Part shown: piece after piece, positions 10,706 to 13,373 of the stretch
How positions within the stretch are numbered: the first letter of the stretch is position 1
Layout: each line of letters starts with the position of its first letter
Assembly (NCBI GenBank): GCA_012511355.1
Contig: JAAZGG010000089.1
Coordinates: 1 to 13,373, forward strand
DNA: 13,373 bases
Direction of reading: 5' to 3'
DNA from: a bacterium
GTDB taxonomy: Bacteria; Bacillota_I; Bacilli_A; RFN20; UBA1709
The notes under the pieces: model-generated
What the model was told of the DNA's origin: nothing
The model's database searches: none
The model's input: the letters and a program-made list of their open reading frames with translations, nothing else
Program-made: the position numbers and the translations under genes

Positions 10706-11887
10706 ATGCCCAAAAAACTCAGAGTCTTAGAAGGCATGGATGTCTATTTACCAGACACTGATGGGGTAATCAACGCCTTACATAATTATAGTTTGAACCT
10801 CTATAAAAGAGTTGATTTAACTGTCATGGCCCCTAAGCATCGCGGTCATATTGATAATCAAGCGTACAGAATTATTCGCTGTCGTTCTTTGCGTGTGCCT
10901 ATTATCGATAATTATTATGGTTTACCAAGTAGAGATAGCAAGTTTAAACAAAGGCTTTTGCGAGAAGATTACGATATCATTCATATTCATTCACCTTTTG
11001 CCATGTTGCGTTTTGGACTTAAACTTGCTAGGAAAAAGGGCATTCCTATCGTCGCTACTTTTCATAGTGATATGCGCACAATTTTTAAAAGCATGTTCTT
11101 CTTTAATTGGATTGTTAATGCTTTGGTCAATAGGATAGGCAAACTTTATAATCAAGTAGATGAAGTCTTCTGTATTTCCTCTTTAGTTGAAGAGCAATTG
11201 CGCTCTTATGGCTATACAGGCAAGGTTACTTATTTACCTTATGGTACTGATTTTGCGCGTTCAAATAAAGTAGAAGAACTTTGGGAAGAAGGCAATCAAA
11301 AATTCGATCTTGAGAATGAAGAAACGCTCTTTATTTTTGTTGGTAGAATCATGAAATTAAAAAGGATTGATTTCATCCTTGAAAGTTTAAAAATTGTCAA
11401 GGAAAATGGCTACAAATTTAAATTCAAAATTGTAGGAAAAGGCCCTGAAACTCGTATTTTAAAAAGAAAAGTTAAAGAGTTAAAATTAGAGAATGAAGTT
11501 TGCTTCCTTGGTTTCATTCCGCGTGAAGATTTTCCAGCCCTTTATGCACGCGGCGATCTACTTTTATTTCCCTCTTTATATGACAATTTCGGTCTTGTTA
11601 AAGTGGAAGCTGCCGCCTTTGCTACCGCGGGTTTATTTATTGAAAATTCCTGTGCTGGCGATGGGATAATTGATGGAGTTAATGGCTACTTAGCCGCTAA
11701 CAATCCTGAGGCTTTTGCTAGTAAAATTATAGAAGCAATTAAGGATAAAGAAAAACTTCGACAGGTGGGTTTAAAAGCCTGGGAAGATGTTTATATTTCT
11801 TGGGATGAATGTTCGCAACAATTATTAAAGCGACTTGAGGCCATTGTTTTAGATAAGAAAGCTCAAAAGGAAAAGGTGTCCGCGTGA
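10706..11887 (+). CDS. GT4-family (GT-B fold) glycosyltransferase
   Basis: This is a retaining glycosyltransferase of the GT4 group, probably cytoplasmic or membrane-associated. It moves a sugar from a nucleotide sugar to a lipid or glycan acceptor. The N-terminal acceptor domain has PDTDGVINALHNYSLNL (16-32) and IHIHSPFA (92-99), then VATFHSD (116-122). These resemble diacylglycerol glycosyltransferases of Gram-positive bacteria. The C-terminal donor domain has FVGRIMKLKR (211-220) and GKGPE (244-248), then LYDNFGLVKVEAAA (291-304). In that last motif Asp293 and Glu301 fill the E-x7-E positions, with Asp in place of the first Glu, as in some family members. There is no signal peptide or clear membrane segment, although FFFNWIVNALV (131-141) is hydrophobic. 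AGGGGAG (10689-10695) precedes the ATG by ten bases. The acceptor cannot be read from the sequence. The end overlaps the convergent NifU-type gene by 25 bases. Confidence 0.85.
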   Translation: MPKKLRVLEGMDVYLPDTDGVINALHNYSLNLYKRVDLTVMAPKHRGHIDNQAYRIIRCRSLRVPIIDNYYGLPSRDSKFKQRLLREDYDIIHIHSPFAMLRFGLKLARKKGIPIVATFHSDMRTIFKSMFFFNWIVNALVNRIGKLYNQVDEVFCISSLVEEQLRSYGYTGKVTYLPYGTDFARSNKVEELWEEGNQKFDLENEETLFIFVGRIMKLKRIDFILESLKIVKENGYKFKFKIVGKGPETRILKRKVKELKLENEVCFLGFIPREDFPALYARGDLLLFPSLYDNFGLVKVEAAAFATAGLFIENSCAGDGIIDGVNGYLAANNPEAFASKIIEAIKDKEKLRQVGLKAWEDVYISWDECSQQLLKRLEAIVLDKKAQKEKVSA

Positions 11888-12126
11888 CACCTTTCTTGTT
11901 TAACAACTTCGACTCCGCAAACGCCAGGGACTTCATCCATGAGAATCATTTCGATGCCGCCATAGACGGTACTATCTTGTAGGGGGCAATCAACACAGGC
12001 ACCTTTCATTCGAATTTTAACGATGCCATCCTGATAACTGACAAATTCACAATCGCCACCTTCCCTTTGGATAAAGGGCCGGATTTTATCTAAAACTTCC
12101 TTAATTTGTTCTTCAATATTTTCCAT
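11863..12126 (-). CDS. NifU C-terminal-domain protein (Fe-S cluster scaffold or carrier)
   Basis: This small protein consists only of the NifU C-terminal (Nfu-type) domain, which holds a labile Fe-S cluster between two subunits and passes it to target enzymes. IRPFIQREGGDCEFVSYQDG (15-34) and KGACVDCPLQDSTVYGGIE (41-59) are diagnostic, with cluster ligands Cys44 and Cys47. EVPGVCGVEVV (65-75) closes the fold. The length of 87 residues is somewhat shorter than B. subtilis YutI but covers the whole domain. The last residues, HADTFSF, are encoded in the terminator hairpin and are probably a late extension. AGAGGTG (12131-12137 on this strand) lies four bases before the ATG and fixes the start. 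The gene runs from a promoter that overlaps the one for the S1-isomerase gene. Confidence 0.9.
   Translation of the reverse strand: MENIEEQIKEVLDKIRPFIQREGGDCEFVSYQDGIVKIRMKGACVDCPLQDSTVYGGIEMILMDEVPGVCGVEVVKQERCHADTFSF
11872..11894. terminator. Bidirectional terminator in the overlap of two convergent genes
   Basis: AAAGGTGTC (11872-11880) pairs perfectly with GACACCTTT (11886-11894) around a CGCGT loop. On the plus strand CTTGTTT follows. On the minus strand the stem is followed by TTCCTTTTGA, so a T-rich run exists on both sides. The plus-strand stop codon (11885-11887) lies within the hairpin, and the minus-strand stop (11863-11865) lies just past its T-run. Confidence 0.7.
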
Positions 12127-12193: not shown

Positions 12194-12217
12194 CAAGAAA
12201 ACACGATGGGGGATTCA

Positions 12218-13373
12218 ATGGCCAGAATTTATCGAACAGGAGAAATCATTTACGGGATAGTTACCGGTTTTCAGCCTTATGGGGCTTTTGTCGAATTAAA
12301 GGATGGTGGCACGGGTTTAGTACACATCTCTGAGATCTCGGCGGACTATGTTCGTAATATTGAGGATTATCTTAAATTAGGCGAGGAGACACTTTTTTAT
12401 GTCATTGATTATGATGAAGAACGCGCCCACGCCCGTTTAAGCTTAAAGCGTTTAAGAAAAGAGGGAAGAAATAAAAGAAAGGCCGCCTTGTTTAAACGCA
12501 ATAAGAAAGAACTAGATAAAAACAAGGATCTTTTCCCCTTTATTTCCGAAATAGTAGATGAAATTTTAAAGAAAGAGCAGGCTCAAAAAATGTTAAGTAT
12601 TGATAAAAATTATTGTTTAAGAGATTTCGATTATCAAAATTATCAAAGTGAAATTGATAGGGTCGATGAATTAATTCGTAAGCGAACAGGACTTGGTGGG
12701 GATTTTTTAGGTTTCTTAGATTATGCCCATACTTTTGATGATAAAGAACTTTTAAGAATCCTGCGTTTAGCAGAAGAAATTCGTGGCAAATACGACACCT
12801 TTGTTGTCTGTGGTATCGGGGGTTCTTATCTAGGGGCAAAAGCAGGCATTGAAATGCTTAAAACACCTAATTTTACTAATGATATAGAACTATTATTTTT
12901 AGGCAACACCTTTTCTTCTGACTATACGAAAAACCTTTTAGAATATTTAGAGAGCCGTGATTTTGCTATCAATGTTATCTCTAAGAGTGGCTCAACCTTA
13001 GAAACCGCCATCGGCTTTCGTTTCCTAAGGGAGTTGCTAATCAAAAAATATGGCAAAGAAGAGAGTAGAAGACGCATTTTTATCACTACTGATAGTGAAA
13101 AAGGCGAGTTGCGAACTTTAAGCAACAGGGAAGGTTACACTTCTTTTGTAATACCCGATAATATTCAAGGTCGTTACTCGGTTTTCACTCCCGTCGGTCT
13201 TTTTCCTTTAGCAATAGCAGGTGTAGATATCGCTAGTTTGTTACAGGGAGTAAGAAAAGCGATGCTTAATCTTGAAGGTAAAAGTGTTCAAGAAAATGCT
13301 GCTTATCAGTACGCTCTTTTAAGAAGAGAGTTAGCAAAAGAAAAAACGGTTGAACTTTTCGTCAGTTATGAAC
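12218..13373 (+). CDS. pgi: Fusion of an S1 RNA-binding domain with glucose-6-phosphate isomerase (cut by the window end)
   Basis: One open frame of 385 codons reaches the right edge without a stop. Residues 1-80 are an S1 domain of the YugI/CvfD (general stress protein 13) type, with GIVTGFQPYGAFVEL (13-27), GLVHISEISADYVRNI (33-48) and LSLKRLR (74-80). Residues 81-103 form a very basic linker, and 104-128 a helix-like stretch. From about 130 the protein is glucose-6-phosphate isomerase, which interconverts glucose 6-phosphate and fructose 6-phosphate. The isomerase half shows GGDFLGFLD (160-168) and GIGGSYLGAKAGIEML (199-214), then NVISKSGSTLETA (252-264) and GRYSVFTPVG (318-327). The usual Gly before GRY is Gln317. 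The last active-site residues lie beyond the window. ATG 12218 follows GGGGGA by four bases. ATG 12206 is in frame but only about six bases from the predicted transcript start. Met125 (12590) could restart a plain isomerase, but its ribosome binding site is weak. Confidence 0.93.
   Translation, partial: MARIYRTGEIIYGIVTGFQPYGAFVELKDGGTGLVHISEISADYVRNIEDYLKLGEETLFYVIDYDEERAHARLSLKRLRKEGRNKRKAALFKRNKKELDKNKDLFPFISEIVDEILKKEQAQKMLSIDKNYCLRDFDYQNYQSEIDRVDELIRKRTGLGGDFLGFLDYAHTFDDKELLRILRLAEEIRGKYDTFVVCGIGGSYLGAKAGIEMLKTPNFTNDIELLFLGNTFSSDYTKNLLEYLESRDFAINVISKSGSTLETAIGFRFLRELLIKKYGKEESRRRIFITTDSEKGELRTLSNREGYTSFVIPDNIQGRYSVFTPVGLFPLAIAGVDIASLLQGVRKAMLNLEGKSVQENAAYQYALLRRELAKEKTVELFVSYE

Follow-up and report, generated by a model that had tools for sequence, protein, structure and literature searches.

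Glucose-6-phosphate isomerase (PGI) is a homodimer, and in-frame dual-start genes such as clpB exist in bacteria. CvfD of Streptococcus pneumoniae is described as an RNA-binding regulator affecting Mn/Zn balance and virulence (PMC9334652). The window analyzed here, a stretch of 13,373 nucleotides from a bacterium of the lineage UBA1709 (assembly GCA_012511355.1, contig JAAZGG010000089.1), contains on its plus strand, at 12218..13373, a reading frame confirmed as a true in-frame fusion of a CvfD/GSP13-type S1 protein and a Bacillus-type PGI. Comparison with its relatives slightly favors a scheme in which such genes would yield S1-PGI and free PGI from two starts, combined in a dimer scaffold, with the window's clade as a near-obligate fusion and one branch turned into a pseudoenzyme.

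Anatomy of the fused protein and its relatives

No stop interrupts the frame between either of two candidate ATG codons, 12206 and 12218, and the point where both the window and contig C50 end. The contig belongs to a draft assembly that is 66.6% complete and comprises 886,552 bases in 201 contigs; of the gene, the 5' 1156 bases are present. Position 12218 is the likelier start because the Shine-Dalgarno (SD)-like GGGGG before it (12208..12212) pairs with the anti-SD at -8.4 kcal/mol, compared to -0.5 kcal/mol before 12206, and because P0001, a protein 97% identical to that of the window, begins there. The S1 RNA-binding domain (PF00575, 12233..12448) scores 58 bits and the PGI domain (PF00342, 12800-13297) 38.6 bits, both passing the curated cut-off of 22, so that the in-frame fusion claimed in a preliminary description of this DNA stands, with the frame open to the contig end. 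The best S1-type NCBIfam matches are the CvfD model NF040579 (93-96 bits, 93.2 in one search) and PRK08059 (88.6 bits). The cut-off of 117 for NF040579 is not reached by the window and is passed by 5 of the 21 genomes searched, all 5 with fused genes. The PGI model PRK14097 gives 287 bits against a whole-protein cut-off of 443, the window PGI being cut by the contig end.

A profile built from 41 fused proteins covers with its positions 2-127 the chain residues 2-129 of GSP13 from Bacillus subtilis (2k4k), nearly end to end, and matches with positions 125-547 the PGI 3ff1. The joint accordingly lies at Met125, base 12590, where two whole proteins are fused end to end; the in-frame ATG found there (12590..12592) occupies the alignment column in which unfused PGI genes begin. 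The assignment of the S1 part to the CvfD/YugI type is borne out by the GSP13 profile match and the two NCBIfam models. The helix-like stretch at residues 104-128, earlier supposed to be a remnant of that family's C-terminal tail, is indeed covered by the profile and contains the helix at residues 107-121 of the AlphaFold2 model of P0001; the basic linker and this helix, the remainder of the CvfD/GSP13 protein, take up 12449..12589. The PGI part (12590..13373), recognized by Pfam, NCBIfam and profile matches and by alignment to PDB chains, comprises the first 261 codons.

P0001, a full-length protein of 545 aa from a different source, is predicted with a mean pLDDT of 87.0 to form an S1 barrel, a low-confidence linker at about residues 81-100, the helix and a PGI fold from residue 127, of which residues 151-543 align with chain residues 36-437 of the 453 of 3ifs. 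Fifteen active-site positions are retained in P0001. Its catalytic residues are R319, E401, H422 and K535, which we take to be the catalytic Arg, Glu, His and Lys of PGI, and the window reaches only the Arg. The aligned fused proteins likewise have an intact set of active-site positions, except for the S1-pseudo-PGI proteins described below. The S1 domain of PNPase shows conserved F19, F22 and H34 (PMC6832287), where the fused S1, matched by eye, has Y21, F24 and H36.

Compared to CvfD/YugI (GSP13; NF040579, PRK08059, 2k4k), residues 1-124 cover almost the entire protein including its tail, and the S1 of the window's family occupies the place before pgi that the free-standing gene holds in relatives; unlike that protein of about 113-130 aa, it continues in frame into PGI. 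P0001 shares with the Bacillus-type PGIs (3ff1, 3ifs, 1b0z; PRK14097) the alignment to 3ifs and the 15 active-site positions. In contrast to them, it carries an N-terminal S1 protein, and the conserved motif IGGRYS is replaced in the window's clade by IQGRYS (P0001, P0002, P0003 and P0005) or ILGRYS (P0004). In this clade, PGI seems to be evolving fast.

The architecture, at first thought to have no known example, is already in public databases, unremarked and named as an isomerase only: S1 and PGI are both present in 119 of the best 120 of 7460 matches of a protein search, and the named fused proteins, among them those from Erysipelothrix and one Erysipelotrichales metagenome-assembled genome, are called 'glucose-6-phosphate isomerase' by NCBI. 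The remaining match, P0023, has PGI only; it shows an internal PGI duplication of >100 residues and is perhaps an assembly chimera. The Erysipelothrix proteins (e.g., P0033 from E. inopinata) likewise combine S1 and PGI in 543-545 aa but, unlike the window, belong to a separate fused group on the tree, in which a strong internal start is retained. No description of an S1-PGI fusion was found in the open-access literature searched, much of that at title level. A false fusion created by an assembly or sequencing error, for which the incomplete draft and the contig end might speak, has a negligible probability, since P0001 reads through, full-length relatives exist independently and the single-contig genomes G578, G617 and G598 carry the fusion. 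These independent relatives rule out a frameshift or assembly artefact, and no frameshift has to be assumed.

A search with the CvfD model in 17 fused genomes, in which the reported frame column reads through stops, returned no second CvfD-size gene in any of the 17; all other matches lie in frames of 454-762 aa, presumably proteins such as PNPase or Tex. Twelve of these matches were re-read (11 with internal stops and one weak) and place S1 at the C-terminal end of frames of 702-731 aa or, in two cases, of incomplete frames (454 and 671 aa) that run into a contig end. The unfused genomes G208 and G209 have their own CvfD-size gene of 127-129 aa.

Putative internal isomerase start and the window's clade

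An in-frame ATG stands at the joint column in 18 of 18 fused loci. The SD preceding this ATG pairs at -8.1 kcal/mol or better in 14 of these loci and more weakly in the window (-5.0), G261 (-4.4), G189 (-5.8) and G331 (-6.4). Among the 223 other in-frame ATGs of these 18 loci, 6 pair as strongly as the joint of their own gene. When the joint SD is compared with synonymous recodings of the seven preceding codons, 11 lineages give a combined Fisher p of 2.9e-4, with single p values from 0.005 to 0.69. This test includes 11 of the 18 loci; the close relatives L109, L111, L113, L118, L136, L137 and L138 are left out and show p values of 0.013, 0.016, 0.13, 0.021, 0.085, 0.035 and 0.043, respectively. 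Met is kept at the joint column in 110 of 119 fused proteins, an alignment-column count that includes many near-copies. The junction SD has a mean of -8.9 in 26 fused loci, compared to a median of -8.9 for unfused pgi genes (n=73), and beats the SD of the S1 start in 22 of the 26. In this comparison the S1 start is placed at whichever start codon has the strongest nearby SD, which works in its favor. SD motifs within coding regions are otherwise depleted in highly expressed genes (PMC5100845).

In the Erysipelothrix-type genus, 12 of 13 genomes give a fused match, the thirteenth (G624, 88% complete) having no match. The joint ATG with an SD at -8.1 or stronger is retained in all 12, and none of the 174 other in-frame ATGs equals the joint SD. 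The amino acids at the site vary between species while the SD stays constant, and Lys and Glu are mostly encoded there by AAG and GAG, codons used for 14-31% of the Lys or Glu residues that these genes specify. The protein of G622 is 100% identical to P0033.

Because the SD and the in-frame ATG of PGI are kept inside most fusions, most fused genes examined probably make both S1-PGI and free PGI. Like dual-start genes such as clpB, they would give a long and a short product from one frame with two starts; unlike those genes, they would owe the second start to a neighboring gene, whose own start was captured by the fusion. The single fusion protein envisaged in the preliminary description would accordingly be only part of the story for most of these genes, although less so for the window's clade.

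The window's own SD for the S1 start is stronger (-8.4 kcal/mol) than the GAGCAGG of the former PGI start (12575..12581, -5.0 kcal/mol), and 2 of the 4 other in-frame ATGs in the window piece pair as strongly as the joint ATG. A dual-start gene in the window is unsupported by its own sequence (recoding p 0.36). P0001 and P0005 retain the joint Met, whereas P0002, P0003, P0004 and P0006 carry Leu, Leu, Phe and Tyr, respectively, in its place. These four are known as proteins, and their genes may have TTG or GTG as a start codon at the joint or beside it. The weak site of the window and the loss of Met in four of the five next relatives after P0001 indicate that this clade probably makes mostly or only the fusion.

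Within the same clade, four protein clusters (P0122-P0124 and P0160) form a family, here termed S1-pseudo-PGI, that is undescribed in the open-access literature searched; one of its loci, L181:1072-1941, lies in G003, which belongs to the window's own family of genomes. These proteins show no Pfam PGI match. In the alignment, the PGI active-site residues are lost and S1 is intact, and the S1 is under undiminished constraint. Descent of the pseudo domain from PGI is found by hhalign on P0122-P0124, and the PGI fold is retained in the predicted model of P0122, which has a mean pLDDT of 58 and is usable only at residues 1-81 and about 139-310; P0160 is excluded from hhalign, model and tree, and P0122 alone was modeled. 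This suggests that selection keeps S1 in this branch, with the PGI remnant as a scaffold. Among the four genomes of the window's family, all of which have PFK, G000 and G001 give a Pfam PGI match, and G002 (95% complete) and G003 (93%) give none; the CvfD model search found no CvfD-size S1 gene in G002.

Origin from neighboring genes

An S1 gene lies directly upstream of pgi in 68 of the 74 unfused rows of the PGI tree, which were mostly chosen among the most query-like genomes and are not a census. The spacing is -26 to +63 bases in 67 of the 68 and 439 in one, and both genes are in phase in 24. Five of the 74 rows, one of which lies at a contig start, show no S1 gene before pgi, and another has no clear PGI ATG. 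An old neighborhood of the two genes, suspected earlier from B. subtilis, in which yugI presumably lies a few genes from pgi, is supported by these relatives. Loss of the stop between such adjacent, often overlapping co-directional genes would lead to an end-to-end fusion. A near-fusion is seen at about base 1864 of L108 (G193), where the S1 stop TAA is directly followed by the in-frame PGI ATG and preceded by GGAGG.

A survey of the order, with a PGI match at 1e-40 in 251 of 279 genomes, verified at least 12 true fusions, the window included, and a survey of the class, with a match at 1e-60 in 317 of 395 genomes, added at least 6 more. G023, G038, G048, G019 and others were rejected as fusions, their frames showing in-phase neighbor genes, as were Granulicatella and a contig labelled Carnobacterium (L032, L033, L055 and L090), in which the genes are neighbors. 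On the PGI tree (105 rows, 31 fused), the fused label needs 7 changes, each forced by starred branches. Forcing all fused rows into one clade is 524 log-likelihood units worse (approximately unbiased [AU] test, p 3.2e-61), by which one ancestral fusion is rejected; the flagged long rows L182, L183, L184 and L195 are all unfused. To judge from this tree, fusion was gained or lost on several occasions. The clearest fusion is found within one genus, in which the fused G211 and G212 stand next to the unfused G208 and G209. The stem of the window's clade is long (0.5) on this tree.

In the window, a NifU-like gene (PF01106, 82 bits) at 11863..12126 on the minus strand is transcribed divergently from S1-PGI, and a 91-aa gene (L003:125-400), similar by eye, holds its position in G001. 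This gene and a plus-strand glycosyltransferase gene (PF00534) at 10706-11887 overlap tail to tail at the 3' end of the latter, and a terminator-like hairpin lies at 11872-11894. Further upstream, a ribosomal protein L10 leader (RF00557, 58.4 bits) at 1239-1368 precedes a likely rplJ, in a cluster which we take to be rplKAJL-rpoBC-like.

Proposed explanation and its alternatives

In the scheme given a little more than even weight here, a fused gene would be translated into S1-PGI when initiation occurs at the first start and into free PGI when it occurs at the internal start. As PGI is a homodimer and both products would mix, dimers with zero, one or two S1 domains may form. PGI would then act both as a glycolytic enzyme and as a dimer scaffold for the cell's only CvfD-type RNA binder; production of free PGI would tune the share of S1-tagged dimers, and fusion to a dimeric enzyme would create a two-headed RNA binder. 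In the window's clade, which has a weak internal start or none, nearly every PGI would carry S1, and in one branch catalysis would then have been lost, the remnant being kept as a carrier in S1-pseudo-PGI. The path would lead stepwise from neighboring genes over a fusion with two starts and an obligate fusion to the pseudoenzyme. That PGI thereby came to serve a post-transcriptional regulator as its structural partner is a tentative proposal, given somewhat less than even weight. In the window's clade, the only CvfD-type RNA binder of the cell and what seems to be its only PGI would form one (nearly) obligate protein, and in one branch a pseudo-isomerase would remain to carry and dimerize S1.

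Several points weigh against this scheme. Recoding is non-significant in G261 (0.69), G331 (0.38) and G008 (0.16), in G018 (0.49) despite a strong SD, and in the window with its internal SD of -5.0 kcal/mol (0.36), and the joint Met is absent in 9 of the 119 fused proteins. The SD in recently fused genes can persist by inertia. The PGI tree gives no direction between gain and loss of fusion, and the stem of the pseudo branch is very long (2.66). S1 may be important by itself, with PGI as a mere passenger. The lack of a second CvfD gene in G000 is weak evidence because this genome is 66.6% complete.

Inertia would also preserve the site if only full-length S1-PGI were made and the internal SD and ATG were left over from the former pgi start and no longer used, a reading that the weak site and the lost Met of P0002, P0003, P0004 and P0006 would fit. 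It is considered rather unlikely, since the Erysipelothrix-type fusion goes back as far as the genus sample reaches and SD and ATG nevertheless persist in 12 of 12, while neighboring amino acids turn over and the rarer codons AAG and GAG are used at the site; moreover, the junction SDs equal those of unfused pgi genes. A neutral ratchet, in which a lost stop is tolerated, both halves work and the internal start supplies PGI with no further function, is a credible though not a likely account. The close, often in-phase spacing places fusion nearly one step away, and the repeated switches between states on the tree fit a high mutational input. Passive tolerance would not, however, be expected to lead the window's clade to give up mostly the internal start or the pseudo branch to keep a PGI-derived domain on S1 in four clusters. 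Control of S1 RNA binding by a sugar-phosphate bound to PGI, or placement of PGI on ribosomes or mRNA by S1, agrees with the intact active-site positions of the aligned fused proteins and with the adjoining of S1 and pgi over a wide clade. Such a link between glycolysis and translation is improbable: S1-pseudo-PGI keeps a constrained S1 without the ligand site, which argues against sugar-phosphate control as the core function, and fused genes probably also yield free PGI.

Of greater interest than the fusion is the history of its family. In-phase neighbors, fusions with the old start kept, fusions with the old start lost and a pseudoenzyme form a readable series of intermediates, which shows a route from two adjacent genes to one multifunctional protein. 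Proteins annotated only as isomerases, including those of the 12 of 12 matched Erysipelothrix-type genomes, are flagged as probably RNA-binding and of two lengths, pointing to a physical link of central sugar metabolism with mRNA handling. If the proposed scheme is true, a glycolytic enzyme would have been turned stepwise into part of an RNA regulator.
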